From positions 1 through 64,000 of the forward strand of contig NZ_JAGOMQ010000013.1 of NCBI RefSeq assembly GCF_017993425.1: 64,000 bases of DNA, read 5' to 3'. Position 1 is the stretch's first letter; each line of letters begins with the position of its first letter. Both the position numbers and the translations under genes were made by a program. Below the pieces are notes generated by a model. The model did not search any database and was not told the DNA's origin. It was given only the letters and a program-made list of their open reading frames with translations. This DNA comes from Amaricoccus sp. GTDB taxonomy: Bacteria; Pseudomonadota; Alphaproteobacteria; Rhodobacterales; Rhodobacteraceae. Positions 32,753-62,301 of the stretch are shown one piece after another.

Positions 32753-33184
32753 ATGCGCCTTGCCCTCGCCGCCGCCCTGCTTCTCGCGATCCCGGCCCTC
32801 GCCGCCGAGACCGGGCCGGCGCCCGGGCCGGTGGACGGGCTCGCCGACATTCCGGTCGAGGACTGGACCGCGATGGCGTCCGGGCGGACGCTGACGTACA
32901 CGATCGGCGGCGAGTTCTGGGCGATGGAGCATTACGAGCCCGGCTCGAACCGGGTGAGCCTGCAATTCTACGACGGGACCTGCCTGACCGGGACCTGGGA
33001 CTACTCGGCGCCGCTCTACTGCTTCCACTGGGAGGGCGAGGGCACCTCCTGCTTCCGCCATGCGCGGCTGGGCGAGCAGATCCTGATCCTGGAGACCCGG
33101 GAGGGGGCCGAGACCGGCTCCATGCAGCTGATGTCCGGCGTGTCCGACGCGCCGCTTTCCTGCGGACCGCAGGCGATCAGCTGA
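32753..33184 (+). CDS. Small secreted protein with four cysteines, function unknown
   Basis: A 143-residue protein with a clear signal peptide (MRLALAAALLLAIPALAAE) and mature sequence rich in Trp, Tyr and Gly. Four cysteines (about 77, 90, 100, 137) could form two disulfides in the periplasm. The pattern of GRTLTYTIGGEFWAMEHY, then GTCLTGTW, LYCFHW and TSCF resembles DUF995-type small periplasmic proteins of alphaproteobacteria; I hold that assignment as tentative. It follows rne after a hairpin and precedes a repeat-filled tail-to-tail spacer. Confidence 0.75.
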   Translation: MRLALAAALLLAIPALAAETGPAPGPVDGLADIPVEDWTAMASGRTLTYTIGGEFWAMEHYEPGSNRVSLQFYDGTCLTGTWDYSAPLYCFHWEGEGTSCFRHARLGEQILILETREGAETGSMQLMSGVSDAPLSCGPQAIS

Positions 33185-33224
33185 GCTTCCGGCCCGCCGA
33201 CAGGGGCGCCACGCACGGCGTGTT

Positions 33225-33260
33225 CACGCGTGAAAATCCCCTAAGCCATTGATTTCGTGT
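33225..33260 (+). repeat. 36-bp dispersed element (partner at 25416-25451)
   Basis: Starts CACGCGTGAA and ends CTAAGCCATTGATTTCGTGT, 30 of 36 identical to the partner read on the minus strand. Here it includes the perfect palindrome TTCACGCGTGAA (33223-33234). It begins about 40 bp after the stop of the upstream gene, as the partner does after prfB. It is part of the 485-bp gene-free spacer 33185-33669. Confidence 0.75.
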
Positions 33261-33280
33261 AATCGTGAACGAAACCTTGC

Positions 33281-33635
33281 CACGTTCGCCACGCTGCACG
33301 GCACTGAAGGCGAGACCCGGTCCGGGGAAGGGCGCGACGGCGACGACAGACGGATTTGACCCGTGGCAAATCCGTCCGCGCTCGCCCCCCCGAGGGCGAG
33401 CGCGATTCCGCGCCCGCCGGGGCGATCCCGGACGGATTGCGAGCGACGGGGAAATCTGGACCCCCGCCGGCCTCCGCGCCAACGCGCTCCGGCCGCCGGC
33501 GCGGCGAAAGCCGTGCTTTCGCTTGTCGCGCCGGGGCCTCGCGGGCAGAGCCCGCTTCGGTCGATCCACATCTCCCCGGCCTGGGCAGGGCAGGTTTGGT
33601 GTCGTGCAGTGCGCACGTTCGCCACGCTGCACGGC
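33281..33635. repeat. 22-bp direct repeat pair flanking the hairpin-chain element
   Basis: CACGTTCGCCACGCTGCACG followed by GC occurs identically at 33281-33302 and 33614-33635, 333 bp apart, and the bases after each copy are also similar (ending GGCGAG). The pair brackets the structured repeat 33334-33567. It could mark an insertion or a recombination product. Confidence 0.8.
33334..33567 (+). repeat. Hairpin-chain repeat, copy 1 (partner 61016-61250)
   Basis: About 234 bp, closely matching 61016-61250. It is a string of inverted repeats: GACGGATTTG/CAAATCCGTC (33349-33376), CGCTCGCCC/GGGCGAGCG (33379-33402), an imperfect GCCGGCC/GGCCGCC stem enclosing GCGC-CAAC-GCGC (33466-33497), GGCGCG-GCGAAAGC/GCTTTCGC-TTGT-CGCGCC (33498-33532) and GCGGGC-AGA-GCCCGC (33541-33555). 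It lies in a tail-to-tail spacer. Frames through it show no protein character. Confidence 0.88.
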
Positions 33636-33669
33636 GGAGGCGGCGAGGGTCGGCCGACGCATGCGGGCC

Positions 33670-35094
33670 TCAGGCCGGGGGCAGGGCGGCGCCGGGGTTG
33701 AGGATGCCGAGGGGGTCGAGGGCGTCCTTGATGGCGCGCATCGCCCGGAGCTTGGCGGGGTCGGCGTAGCGGGTCATGTCGTCGAGCTTGATGCGGCCGA
33801 CGCCGTGCTCGGCCGCCACCGAGCCGCCGAAGGCGTGGACGAGGTCGTGGACCGTGGCCTTCACCACGTCCTTCACGGCGTCGTAGTCCGCGCGCGGCCG
33901 GCCGCGGGCCGGGAAGACGTTGTAGTGCAGGTTGCCGTCGCCGAGATGGCCGAAGGCGTTGATCCGCATCCCCGGGTCGATCGCCGCCACCGCGGCGTCG
34001 GCGGCGGCGAGGAACTCCGGCAGGCGCGCCGGGGGGAGCGCGACGTCGTGGCTCGACACCGAGCCGATGAGCCGATTCGCCTCCGGGATGGTCTCGCGCA
34101 CCGTCCAGAAGGCGCGGCGCTGCGCCTCGTTCTGCGCCACGAGGGCGTCGGTGGCGAGCCCCTCCTCGATCGCCGCCGCGAGCGCCTCCTCGAGCCGCGG
34201 GCCGACCGCGGCGCCGGGGCCGTCGGCGACCTCGACGAGGACGATCCAGTCCGAGGGGCTCGCCTGCGGGATCGCGACGTGCGGCACGGTCTCGCCGAGG
34301 AAGTCGATGCCGGCGCGGTGGATCAGCTCGAAGGCGGAGATCGCCTGCCCGAGCCGCGCCCGCATCAGCGCGAGGAGCGCCAGCGCCTCGGCCGGCCCCG
34401 GGACGGGCGCCCAGGCGGCGGCGGTCTCCGCGGGGAGCGGGTGCAGGCGCAGGCTCGCGCCGGTGATGACCGCGAGCGTGCCCTCCGAGCCGATGATCAG
34501 GTGGCGCAGGTCGTAGCCGAGGTTGTCCTTCAGCACGTGGGCGAGCCCGTGCATGACGCTGCCGTCGGCCATCACCGCCTCGATCCCGAGGCAGAGGTCG
34601 CGGGCGTTGCCGTAGCGCAGGACGCCGACCCCGCCGGCGTTGGCGGCGAGGAGGCCGCCGATGCGCGCCGAGCCCTCGGAGGCGAGCGAGAGCGGGAAGA
34701 GCCGCCCGGCGGCGCGGGCGGCGGCCTGCACGTCGGCGAGCACGCAGCCGGCGTCGACGATGGCGACGCCGCCGACGGGGTCGAGCTCGCGGATGCGGGT
34801 CATCCGCTCCAGCGACAGCAGGACCGGCAGCGGCCCCTCCATCGGGGTATGCCCGCCGACGAGGCCGGTGCCGCCACCGAAGGGGACGATTCCGACCCGC
34901 GCCTCGGCGCAGAGCGCCACGACGCGGGCGACCTCCGCGGTCGAGGCGGGCAGCGCCACGGCGGCGACGCGGCCGCGGCGGCGGCCGCGCGGCTCCTCGA
35001 GGTGGCGCGGCTCGGGCGGCCGGACGGCGCCCGCGCCGAGCGCGGATTCGAGCCGGGCAAGGAAGGCGGGGTGGGCGGGGTTCAGGTCGGCCAT
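33670..35094 (-). CDS. FAD-binding oxidoreductase, D-2-hydroxyacid dehydrogenase type
   Basis: A 474-residue flavoprotein of the vanillyl-alcohol oxidase fold. Seen: FAD loops PFGGGTGLVGGH and GGLLAANAGGVGVLRYGNARD, then in the C-domain the metal-site HLGDGNLHYNV and EHGVGRIK. These match D-lactate, glycolate (GlcD) and D-2-hydroxyglutarate dehydrogenases, which pass electrons to quinone, cytochrome c or ETF; ETF is encoded at 59189-60879. Exact substrate unknown. The start overlaps the GNAT gene's end by 13 bp, so it is the last gene of the long minus-strand run from ctaC. Confidence 0.9.
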   Translation of the reverse strand: MADLNPAHPAFLARLESALGAGAVRPPEPRHLEEPRGRRRGRVAAVALPASTAEVARVVALCAEARVGIVPFGGGTGLVGGHTPMEGPLPVLLSLERMTRIRELDPVGGVAIVDAGCVLADVQAAARAAGRLFPLSLASEGSARIGGLLAANAGGVGVLRYGNARDLCLGIEAVMADGSVMHGLAHVLKDNLGYDLRHLIIGSEGTLAVITGASLRLHPLPAETAAAWAPVPGPAEALALLALMRARLGQAISAFELIHRAGIDFLGETVPHVAIPQASPSDWIVLVEVADGPGAAVGPRLEEALAAAIEEGLATDALVAQNEAQRRAFWTVRETIPEANRLIGSVSSHDVALPPARLPEFLAAADAAVAAIDPGMRINAFGHLGDGNLHYNVFPARGRPRADYDAVKDVVKATVHDLVHAFGGSVAAEHGVGRIKLDDMTRYADPAKLRAMRAIKDALDPLGILNPGAALPPA

Positions 35095-59188: not shown

Positions 59189-59950
59189 ATGAAGATCCTC
59201 GTGCCCGTGAAGCGGGTGATCGACTACAACGTCAAGCCGCGGGTCAAGGGCGACGGCTCCGGGGTCGAGCTCGCCAACGTCAAGATGAGCATGAACCCCT
59301 TCGACGAGATCGCCGTCGAGGAGGCGATCCGGCTCAAGGAGAAGGGCGTCGCCACCGAGATCGTCGTGGTCTCCATCGGCGTCAAGCAGGCGCAGGAGAC
59401 GCTGCGCACCGCGCTCGCCATGGGCGCCGACCGGGCGATCCTGATCGAGGCCGCGCCGGACGTCTCCACCGACATCGAGCCCCTCGCCGTGGCGAAGCTC
59501 CTCAAGGCCGTCGCCGACGCCGAGGCCCCGGGGCTGATCATCGCCGGCAAGCAGGCGATCGACAACGACATGAACGCCACCGGCCAGATGCTCGCGGCCC
59601 TCCTCGGCTGGCCGCAGGCGACCTTCGCCTCCGAGGTCGCGGTCGAGGGCGACAAGGCGACCGTCACCCGCGAGGTCGACGGCGGCCTCCAGACGATCGC
59701 GGTCCGGCTGCCGGCGGTGGTCACCGTCGACCTGCGCCTCAACGAGCCGCGCTACGCGTCGCTGCCGAACATCATGAAGGCCAAGAAGAAGCCGCTCGAG
59801 GAGAAGACGCCCGCCGACTACGGCGTCGACGTCAGCCCGCGGCTCAAGGTGGTCAAGACCGTCGAGCCGGCGACCCGCAAGGCCGGGGTGAAGGTCGGCT
59901 CGGTCGACGAGCTGATCGCGAAGCTCAAGACCGAAGCGGGGGTGATCTGA
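59189..59950 (+). CDS. etfB: Electron transfer flavoprotein beta subunit
   Basis: A 253-residue beta subunit. [19 protein letters not shown] start, [21 protein letters not shown], and the ETF signature [22 protein letters not shown] are present. With EtfA it carries electrons from acyl-CoA and other dehydrogenases to ETF:quinone oxidoreductase. The start follows GGGGGAG, and the stop shares a base with the etfA ATG. Confidence 0.97.
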
Positions 59951-60879
59951 TGGCCGTCCTGGTCCTCGCCAAGCACGACAACGCCCACCTGAACGACGCC
60001 ACCGCCCGGGCCGTGACCGCGGCCAGGGCGCTCGGCGGCGACATCACCGTGCTCGTCGCCGGCGAGAACGCCGGCGCCGTCGCCGAGGCCGCCGCGCAGC
60101 TCGACGGGGTGACGAAGGTGGTCCACGTCGAGGGCGCCGGCCTCGGCCACCGCCTTGCCGAGCCGCTGACCGACCTCGTCGTGTCGATGGCCGGGCCTTT
60201 CGAGCACATCGTCTTCCCCGCGACCACCTCCGGCAAGAACGTCGCCCCCCGGGTGGCGGCGCTCCTCGACGTCATGGTGATCTCCGACGTGACCGGCGTG
60301 GTCGGCCCCGACACCTTCGAGCGGCCGATCTACGCCGGCAACGCGGTGCAGACCGTGCAGTCGGCCGACGCGAAGAAGGTGATGACCGTGCGCGGGACCG
60401 CCTTCGAGCCCGCCGGCGCCCAGGCCGCCGCCCCGGTCGAGACCGCCGCCGCTCCGGCGGACGCCGGCCTCTCCGCCTGGGTCGAGGACAAGGTCGCGAC
60501 CTCCGACCGGCCGGAGCTGACCAGCGCGAAGATCGTCGTCTCCGGCGGCCGCGGCGTCGGCTCGGAGGAGAACTTCCGCATCATCGAGGCGCTGGCCGAC
60601 AAGCTCGGCGCCGCGGTCGGCGCCTCGCGCGCCGCGGTCGACTCGGGCTTCGCCCCGAACGACTGGCAAGTCGGCCAGACCGGCAAGGTCGTCGCGCCGG
60701 AGCTCTACGTCGCGGTCGGCATCTCCGGCGCGATCCAGCACCTCGCGGGGATGAAGGACAGCAAGGTCATCGTCGCGATCAACAAGGACGAGGAGGCGCC
60801 GATCTTCCAGGTCGCCGACTACGGCCTCGTCGGCGACCTCTTCGCCATCGTCCCCGAGCTGACCGGCAAGCTCGGCTGA
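59950..60879 (+). CDS. etfA: Electron transfer flavoprotein alpha subunit
   Basis: A 309-residue alpha subunit. The C-terminal FAD domain shows [32 protein letters not shown] and [19 protein letters not shown], then [19 protein letters not shown]. Translation is coupled to etfB by a TGATG overlap. The FAD-linked oxidase at 33670 and the incomplete flavoprotein at the right edge are possible electron donors, but that is inference. Confidence 0.97.
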
Positions 60880-61015: not shown

Positions 61016-61250
61016 GCGACGTCGAAGCCAGACGGATTTGACCCGTGGCAAATCCCGTCCGCGATCGCCCCGCCGGGGGCGAGCGCGTCGCCGCGCTCGC
61101 CGGGGCGATCACGGCCGGATTGCGCGCGACGGGGAAATCTTCACCCCTGACGACCTCCGCGCCAACGCGCTCCGGTCGTCGGCGCGGCGAAAGCCGTGCT
61201 TTCGCTTGTCGCGCCGTGGCCTCGCGGGCAGAGCCCGCTTCGGTCGGTCC
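61016..61250 (+). repeat. Hairpin-chain repeat, copy 2 (partner 33334-33567)
   Basis: About 235 bp. Stems: GACGGATTTG/CAAATCCCGTC (one extra C, 61031-61059), a nested 48-nt hairpin GATCGCCCC..GGGGCGATC enclosing GGCGAGCGCG-TCGC-CGCGCTCGCC (61063-61110), GACGACC/GGTCGTC enclosing GCGC-CAAC-GCGC (61149-61180), GGCGCG-GCGAAAGC/GCTTTCGC-TTGT-CGCGCC, and GCGGGC-AGA-GCCCGC. It ends 10 bp before the stop of the minus-strand Gfo/Idh/MocA gene. Confidence 0.88.
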
Positions 61251-61260
61251 GTGTGGCCCC

Positions 61261-62301
61261 CTATTCCCCGACCGGGGCGACCGCCACCCGCCGGCCCGTC
61301 TCCGCCGAGACGCGCACCGCGTCCATCACCGCCATGTTGCGCGCGCCCTCGACGGCGCCGACATGGGTGGGCAGGCCGTCCTCGACCACCGCGCGGAAGT
61401 GCCGGATCTGCCGGACGTACGGATCCTCGCGCGCCGTCGCGTCCCGCGTCATCCGCATCGGCACGGTCCAGTCGCGCGCCCCGTCGTGGCGCCAGACCTC
61501 CAGCCGCGGCAGGGTCAGCGCCGCCTCGGTCCCCACCACCCGGTGCGAATCGACGTCATGGACCGCGAAGCGCCCGCTGTCGTCGGCGGTCAGGTCCCAG
61601 CTCCACGGCCCGGCCGCCGTGTCGGAGACGACGAGCGAGGCCAGCGCCCCGCTCGCGAGCTCGAAGGTGATCGCCCCGGTGTCCTCGACCGCGAGCCCCC
61701 GCGTGGCGCTCGACGCATAGGCCGACAGCGACACGATCTCGCCGCACAGATAGCGCAACAGGTCGATCTCGTGGATCAGGTTGATGAGGAACGTGCCCCC
61801 CACCCCCGGCGTCCGCCGCCATTCCGGCGCGAAATAGTCGTCCGGCTTCATCAGGCAGGCCGCCACGCTGACGCAGACCAGCCGCCCGAGCGTCCCCGCC
61901 TCGATCAGCGCCCGCGCCCGCTGCACCCTTGTGTCGTGCCGGCGGTGATGGCCGACCAGCACCGGCAGCCCCGTCCGCCGCGCCGCGGCGAGCAGCGTCT
62001 CCGCCTCGGCGAGCGTATTGGCGAGCGGCTTCTCCACGATCGCCGGCACGCCCGCCGCGAGGCAGTCCAGCGCGATCGCGACATGGGTCTCGTTCGGCGT
62101 CGCCACGATCGCCCCGTCGGGACGCTCGGCCGCGAGGAGTGCTCCGTGGTCGCGGTAGTGCCGCGTCCCGAAGCGGGCGGCGAGCGCCGCGCCGCCGTCG
62201 AACGGATCGGCGATCCCGGCGAGCTCGAAGCCCTCCGTCCCGGCGATCGCCTGGCAATGAGTGAGGCCGATCGCCCCGGCGCCGATCACGGCGATGCGCA
62301 T
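61261..62301 (-). CDS. Gfo/Idh/MocA family oxidoreductase
   Basis: A 346-residue NAD(P)-dependent dehydrogenase. Rossmann motif GAGAIG at 7-12, the EKPLAN motif at 90-95 with catalytic-type lysine, and the C-domain GGTFLINLIHEIDLLRYLCGE with its His. The family oxidises sugars, inositols and related polyols. It is the last of four same-strand genes (after a TIM-barrel isomerase, NIPSNAP protein and FAD dehydrogenase), so it likely serves one catabolic route; substrate unknown. Confidence 0.93.
   Translation of the reverse strand: MRIAVIGAGAIGLTHCQAIAGTEGFELAGIADPFDGGAALAARFGTRHYRDHGALLAAERPDGAIVATPNETHVAIALDCLAAGVPAIVEKPLANTLAEAETLLAAARRTGLPVLVGHHRRHDTRVQRARALIEAGTLGRLVCVSVAACLMKPDDYFAPEWRRTPGVGGTFLINLIHEIDLLRYLCGEIVSLSAYASSATRGLAVEDTGAITFELASGALASLVVSDTAAGPWSWDLTADDSGRFAVHDVDSHRVVGTEAALTLPRLEVWRHDGARDWTVPMRMTRDATAREDPYVRQIRHFRAVVEDGLPTHVGAVEGARNMAVMDAVRVSAETGRRVAVAPVGE

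Follow-up and report, generated by a model that had tools for sequence, protein, structure and literature searches.

A MITE of IS4-family type in Amaricoccus with an unusually conserved interior able to take two folds

The window analysed here, a stretch of 64,000 nucleotides from the genome of Amaricoccus sp., contains two distant spacers that carry nearly the same chain of hairpins, and the question arises what kind of repeat this might be. The original prediction had described a 235-bp sequence and named a structured RNA, a terminator island or a non-autonomous mobile element, not decayed coding DNA, as candidates. Both copies are present (C75:33334-33567 and 61016-61250; 90% identical by BLAST), but 235 bp falls short of copy 1: the chain is the covarying core (33334-33567, + strand, by BLAST and covariance model) of a larger element, a complete 324-bp MITE at 33290-33613 (+) with terminal repeats and a flanking 9-bp direct repeat. 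Copy 2 (+ strand) is a core without terminal repeats recognizable by BLAST and the end search, and has as neighbours etfA (59950-60879, +) and the gene of a GFO/IDH/MocA oxidoreductase (61261-62301, -). With high probability, the locus represents a MITE that an IS4-family transposase would mobilize in trans, with a separately conserved core capable of two folds, persistence at gene 3' ends and motif-linked targeting.

Ends, target duplications and a partner IS

A search of the whole genome and of relatives by BLAST and with a covariance model built from 26 copies returned many copies with covarying stems. In the 4.24-Mb Amaricoccus genome all 150 of 150 scored candidates matched the model, corresponding to at least 144 non-overlapping cores, far above chance. 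Across the genus, the core was found at E ≤ 0.001 in seven of 11 genomes, with 60 matches in G007, 30 in G006, 23 in G003, four in G005, two in G004 and one in G009 besides the 150 of the own genome, counts which include some antisense matches of the palindrome; G010, G001, G008 and G002 gave no model match at this threshold, and G010 and G001 showed short, weak BLAST matches. Among 198 genomes sampled across the family the core was detected in 14, two of them of this genus and several by weak matches. The core is thus present in six other Amaricoccus genomes and patchy in other genera, and a distant DNA search found no plasmid copies of the element. Eight same-strand core pairs, 93-114 bp apart, were seen on the own-genome contigs C4, C46, C48, C55, C59, C68, C78 and C92.

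Outside the core, the copies have in common 14-nt inverted ends with the consensus CACACTGCACGACA. In copy 1 these are CACGCTGCACGGCA on the left (33290-33303, +) and TGTCGTGCAGTGCG on the right (33600-33613, -), each 14 nt long, adjoined by the perfectly matching 9-bp target duplications CACGTTCGC at 33281-33289 and 33614-33622. With up to four substitutions allowed per 14-nt end, a left end was called in 102 of the 144 own-genome copies, a right end in 107 and both in 92, and 52 copies, copy 2 included, are without one or both recognizable ends. The two-ended copies measure 311-374 bp, most often 323-324, and 56 of the 92 carry 9-bp duplications matching at 8 or more of 9 positions (37 perfectly), as compared with 14 of 8372 flank pairs taken from different copies; the other 36 are without such a duplication. 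A 17-nt end pattern matched the genome 100 times, its reversed control not once; seven of these matches have no listed core nearby, five of the seven at contig ends. Of the 163 matches to a 14-nt end pattern, 100 were listed, and five among these lie away from a listed core; C8, met in this search, carries the start of an IS. An autonomous parent between the MITE's own ends was ruled out for the 30 end loci fetched, since all 30 contain the core.

The ends vary between species. Terminal repeats were not seen in the G006 copies examined (5 and 14 in two readings), and the copies of G007 and G003 have different ends that appear degraded by eye. One G003 subfamily (L108, L140, L142, L146, L150 and L158) possesses other inverted ends (approximately CCAACTCCGCTTGATC), the model match being shortened to 165-166 nt. 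In the own genome, the cores L006 and L026 lie in a larger common flank whose ends differ (CACACTTCTCCTCCAGCC...) and which may represent a second mobile form, and at L174 (C25:44736) the MITE ends after fold B and continues into coding-like sequence (perhaps a glycosidase, by eye), a structure that represents either a truncation or an assembly join.

The partner of the MITE is best seen in genome G060 (genus g51), which holds a complete 1168-bp IS with CATACTACACGACA ends and a perfect 9-bp duplication, AAGTCCAAG. Its protein of 360 residues contains DDE_Tnp_1 (PF01609) and the YREK motif (YRKRWAIERLFRNTK), and scores 159.3 bits against NCBIfam NF033591, the IS4-family transposase equivalog (cut-off 152); these family tests refer to the G060 protein, the own-genome IS being known from fragments. 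In G232, two such IS ends stand 1.2 kb apart with a perfect 9-bp duplication. In the own genome, IS fragments with CACACTACACGAC ends occur at the contig ends C8, C24, C99 and C19, the IS being assembled as contig-end pieces only, with the middle missing and no full-length copy. C8 and C19 show the end CACACTACACGACAC of an element distinct from the MITE, behind which a reading frame begins in C8; the C8 start (MSHRAVAALSRTLRGHV) is similar to the start in G060 (MDRPVIAALAEVLGGFV). C24, C65 and C99 hold the last codons of a transposase-like frame, whose stop codon falls within the terminal repeat in C24 and C99; C65 diverges earlier. The transposase tail is present in six of 394 family genomes (Rhodobacteraceae), the own genome among them; taken alone it had no Pfam or NCBIfam match, and it was not found on plasmids. 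Matches to the tail in G007 were followed up and yielded no convincing transposase.

The IS4Sa subgroup of the IS4 family is characterized by 5'-CA ends, 8-10 bp repeats, a length of 1150-1750 bp and the YREK motif, as far as the cited excerpt describes it (PMC2266710), and the related IS resembles it in its 1168 bp, CATACT ends, 9-bp duplication and YRKRWAIERLFRNTK. On the other hand, the end consensus given in that excerpt has T at position 9, where CATACTACACGAC and CACACTACACGAC have A (PMC2266710). On these features, the partner IS is not filed in IS4Sa.

IS and MITE have in common just the terminal ≈ 14 bp, and the 234-bp interior of the MITE is no remnant of the IS but a palindromic module conserved in its own right. 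The matching ends, the 9-bp duplication and the IS4-family transposase of the related IS identify the element as a MITE of IS4-family type. It can be rationalized that the transposase would recognize 5'-CACACTRCACGACA ends, mobilize the MITE in trans and make the 9-bp duplications; the ends, the duplications, the copy number and the matching IS are observed, and the movement of the MITE by this transposase is inferred. The idea of a non-autonomous mobile element was borne out by the terminal inverted repeats, the 9-bp duplications, more than 100 copies and a matching IS4-family IS, and past mobility of the MITE is well supported by sequence.

In general, MITEs are short, have no transposase gene, are bounded by terminal inverted repeats and target duplications, occur in many intergenic copies and have ends that match an IS. 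The Amaricoccus element has all of these features: it is short and high in copy number, with terminal inverted repeats, duplications of fixed length, no internal transposase and ends matching an autonomous element. Measured against these general features only, it differs in that its interior is conserved and covaries across genera and its ends vary between species, in that it has two exclusive folds, and in that its copies are allele mosaics. Bacterial examples include MITEAba12 (PMC6382973) and the Coxiella MITEs (PMC5896051), according to the excerpts of these two papers. A limited literature search on MITEs of Amaricoccus and Rhodobacteraceae found no earlier description of the element.

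Two exclusive folds of the interior and their upkeep

The interiors of MITEs are usually treated as filler. The predicted fold of copy 1 reaches -139.6 kcal/mol compared with -120.1 ± 5.3 kcal/mol for shuffled sequences (z = -3.7; 0 of 200 as good), and its stems can be arranged in two ways. The long stem of fold B, AATCCGTCCG ... CGGACGGATT (33369-33438, +), encloses an inner hairpin, and its 5' arm shares nucleotides with the 3' arm of hairpin 1 of fold A (GACGGATTTG / CAAATCCGTC; 33349-33376, +), such that the one excludes the other. The original prediction of a second stem that is a 9-bp hairpin in copy 1 and a 48-nt nested hairpin in copy 2 did not hold up in this form: the same strands exist in both copies, and the two pairings are mutually exclusive. 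Its strands for the third stem are in the DNA as quoted, GCCGGCC/GGCCGCC in copy 1, with one mismatch, and GACGACC/GGTCGTC in copy 2; in copy 1 this hairpin 3 spans 33466-33497 (+) and has an inner CGCG/CGCG. It is followed by hairpin 4 (GGCGCGGCGAAAGC / GCTTTCGC-TTGT-CGCGCC; 33498-33532, +), whose 4-nt bulge is present in relatives too, and by hairpin 5 (GCGGGC / GCCCGC; 33541-33555, +), which varies between species.

A plain MAFFT alignment of 26 copies already showed changes on both sides in 17 of 51 predicted pairs. The larger alignment A4 comprises 56 sense copies from 11 genomes and six genera, with L092, L158 and all own-genome copies but one left out. Fold B is paired there in 92.7% of the cells, a percentage which leans towards this fold since A4 was fitted to it, and has 260 two-sided cells compared with 73 ± 7 after shuffling (0 of 500 shuffles); its covariation score is 0.264 vs 0.088 when shuffled and at most 0.038 when slid. 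Fold A, whose hairpins are absent from the covariance model, is paired in 90.2% of the cells, with 72 two-sided cells vs 25 ± 4 (0 of 500); in one of five measures, further pair types, 58 of 500 shuffles did as well. The middle strand AAATCCGTC can pair with either neighbour, and the three strands tend to change together. At some of the three-strand columns nine G003 rows look broken by eye, which seems to reflect a local shift of the alignment by one position. Across species, these comparisons show two mutually exclusive folds that are both kept by paired changes. The expectation of a structured element, not decayed coding DNA, is backed by stems that covary across 11 genomes, and the opposing case of no covariation across further copies did not occur.

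With the interior stems kept in 11 genomes of six genera, the interior is conserved well enough that the meaning of covariation in a repeat, be it RNA function, DNA hairpin function or template switching, becomes directly testable. It may be considered that the core is a functional RNA, acting as a 3'-UTR element or switch that controls or terminates transcripts through its two exclusive folds and is merely carried by the transposon. The covariation of both folds, with three strands changing together, fits this idea, as does the placement at gene 3' ends in the own genome and in G007. Selection on pairing in a + strand RNA predicts an excess of G.U over A.C, and it is here that the idea runs into difficulty. 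In A4, fold B has 38 G.U vs 77 A.C cells and fold A has 19 vs 27, the distinct pair-level events being 30 vs 31; within the own genome, fold B has 15 vs 43 cells and hairpin 1 seven vs two, with 16 vs 10 distinct events. Hairpin 4 alone speaks for RNA with 21 G.U vs 3 A.C, dropping to 8 vs 3 minus one column. Overall, the comparison of G.U with A.C gave no consistent support for + strand RNA selection. Along these lines, the own-genome tandem copies comprise 37 in sense and 29 in antisense orientation; Rfam returned no match for the window at gathering thresholds, nor any at the element for one G007 locus (L033) at E up to 1; and no intrinsic terminator (GC hairpin plus T run) was found in 33150-33750, around copy 1. 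Of the proposed structured RNA, the covarying structure stands, whereas a match in Rfam and an excess of G.U over A.C in the pooled stems did not appear. Base variants confined to one copy are rarer in stems, with 32 in 119 stem columns vs 57 in 115 others among the 144 own-genome copies (Fisher p = 0.006), a difference in favour of RNA function which has to be read with the choice of copies by model score in mind, as this may favour intact stems. On balance, an RNA function of this kind is regarded as unlikely.

The stems could also be kept perfect by mutation, not by selection, if template switching or hairpin-templated repair copied one arm onto the other. Template switching has been reported to create and maintain RNA stems, in the excerpt cited (PMC8794818); 260 two-sided cells, far above 38 G.U cells, and the concerted change of the arms of a trio would be in keeping with such a process. 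Acting alone, it would leave unexplained why the same stems and the same bulge position recur across the six genera of A4, and equally the rarity of singletons in stems, so that this explanation, while possible, is rather less probable than not. DNA-level upkeep or template switching is at least as likely as RNA function for the core. Most likely, the core would be kept at the DNA level, or by hairpins working in either orientation.

The own-genome copies differ from each other in a particular manner. The 144 cores contain only 89 singleton base variants, at a mean difference of 9.6% within a 60-copy subset, and 49 sites have alleles common to at least seven copies. All four allele combinations, each at least three times, occur at 696 of 1175 site pairs, and the mean r2 falls from 0.124 below 10 bp to 0.057 at 10-30 bp and ≈ 0.03 beyond. 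Between the distance matrices calculated for each half of the core, the correlation is 0.22, compared with a mean of 0.96 and a lowest value of 0.81 in 30 clonal simulations; the permuted mean being 0, some shared ancestry remains. The outer parts retain more linkage (0.37-0.62; 92 copies). The copies are read as mosaics that would stem from frequent gene conversion or template switching among them, and with few private mutations and shuffled shared alleles they offer a natural system for gene conversion among dispersed bacterial repeats. An assembly artefact was considered as well and seems unlikely, since alleles are strongly shuffled even at distances of 10-30 bp, a range shorter than usual assembly word lengths.

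Gene 3' ends and a second repeat beside the MITE

Convergent and divergent spacers are expected in roughly equal numbers across a whole chromosome. Of the 144 own-genome copies, 134 could be placed: 60 in convergent spacers, 66 in tandem spacers (37 sense, 29 antisense) and eight in divergent ones, with one overlap. The genes were called from codon usage by a script rather than with a standard gene finder. Convergent counts are compared with divergent ones since the spacer background (spacers of at least 60 nt: 70 tandem, 30 divergent, nine convergent) was drawn largely from spacers next to element sites and under-represents convergent pairs. In the three relatives, none of the copies examined is divergent: 20 convergent and six sense-tandem in G007 (26 of 60 matches, none antisense), seven convergent, five sense and three antisense in G006 (15 of 30), and five, five and two, respectively, in G003 (12 of 23). 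It can be rationalized that insertions would persist at gene 3' ends since they are harmless there.

Such a distribution also recalls a host-selected device, in which the element would serve as a bidirectional terminator or as a REP-type stabilizer of transcripts. It is intergenic with one overlap in 134, and prefers 3' ends also where the motif described below is lacking (28 convergent, 41 tandem, five divergent); a terminator role has been proposed for hairpin clusters, including those that lack a U trail, as the cited excerpt has it (PMC8355165). The same placement is expected, however, if insertions elsewhere are harmful or if a target motif sits at 3' ends; moreover, there is no U tract at copy 1, and four of the 11 genus genomes are without a model match, two of these having short weak BLAST matches only. 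Of the earlier suggestion of a terminator island, the location mostly at gene 3' ends stands, whereas no intrinsic-terminator-like site was found around copy 1; a selected terminator or stabilizer seems quite improbable.

The placement at 3' ends is joined by a second feature, a repeat M of 33 bp found mostly just behind stop codons and composed of the palindrome GTTCACGCGTGAA plus AAGNCATTGATT. In the window, repeat M (GTTCACGCGTGAA...AAGCCATTGATT; 33222-33254, +) lies 37 nt past the stop codon of a predicted + strand gene (32753-33184) and ends 35 nt before the MITE of copy 1. The motif GTTCACGCGTGAANATTNNNNAAGNCATTGATT has 105 matches in the own genome at up to two mismatches and none in the 10 other genus genomes; when up to three mismatches are allowed, it has 113 matches here, and the 393 other family genomes have none. 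Among the 100 motif copies listed of these 105, 62 are followed by a core at no more than 250 nt (60 of them at no more than 150 nt), none is preceded by one, and 38 are without a listed core downstream. Of 57 measured distances from motif to MITE end, 53 fall at 31-36 nt and 42 at 34-35 nt. Viewed from the MITE, 56 of the 117 copies with at least one identified end lie near the motif, six near a sister palindrome and 55 near neither; in the flanks of these six own-genome copies, the sister motif (like CCACAGTGGGAC) and the MITE end are separated by a comparable distance. The IS starts at C8 and C19 are likewise 34 and 33 nt from a motif, by eye.

Motif sites exist without the MITE as well. 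Of 35 such sites that were read, one has a core 199 nt on, and for 34 a gene was called upstream; this gene is on the same strand as the motif in 27 cases and ends within 50 nt in 24. Since the spacers differ between sites, the motif-adjacent copies look like separate insertions, not copies of one joined block. Motif and MITE are associated, and the location of about half of the end-identified copies beside the motif, mostly at 31-36 nt, points to a target choice that would be directed by the REP-like 33-bp motif past stop codons.

In this context, ISRm22 of Sinorhizobium meliloti, a member of the IS4 family, is of interest, which inserts into REP sequences with 6-bp direct repeats (PMC1525189). 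As portrayed in that excerpt, it is likewise an IS4-family element with insertions tied to an intergenic palindromic repeat, and it differs in that it inserts inside the REP, whereas IS and MITE here stand beside the motif, mostly at 31-36 nt, and with 9-bp repeats (PMC1525189). REPs themselves, in the part of the account cited, measure 20-40 bp, those of GTAG type are tied to RAYT transposases, and G-T pairing is frequent in their stems (PMC3733652). The Amaricoccus element shares with them a high copy number of palindromes near gene 3' ends and subfamilies with alternative complementary stem residues; in contrast to the frequent G-T pairs of REP stems, G.U is not favoured in its core (PMC3733652). 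A near-fixed offset beside a separate motif was not found in the portions consulted of the literature on MITEs, the IS4 family and REPs, and such an offset of MITE and IS from the motif would be a clear example of an IS4-family element that chooses its targets by a motif. A more elaborate scheme is also conceivable, and is considered doubtful: transposase and MITE would target the REP-like motif behind stop codons and cut about three helical turns (34-35 bp) away, with 3'-end repeats serving as landing pads, and the core would act as a hairpin switch with two states, retained across genera and reshuffled between copies as gene conversion goes on, so that the swarm would form one recombining population giving gene 3' ends a standard structured module.

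Two smaller features are found in the same surroundings. In G060, the right flank of the complete IS (L295) is adjoined by a palindrome and AACCCATTGATTTCAT, like part of the own-genome motif in a different arrangement. Directly 3' of the right duplication of copy 1, the window has a solo end-like sequence, CACGCTGCACGGCGGAGGCGG (33623-33643, +), and a similar one occurs near the right end of 11 of the 92 two-ended copies. Such solo end-like boxes (CACGCTGCACGACGGAGGCGG) stand either directly after the MITE duplication, as in the window, or 34-35 nt past the motif, as at the motif sites L308, L336, L343 and L355, and perhaps derive from an older family of elements.
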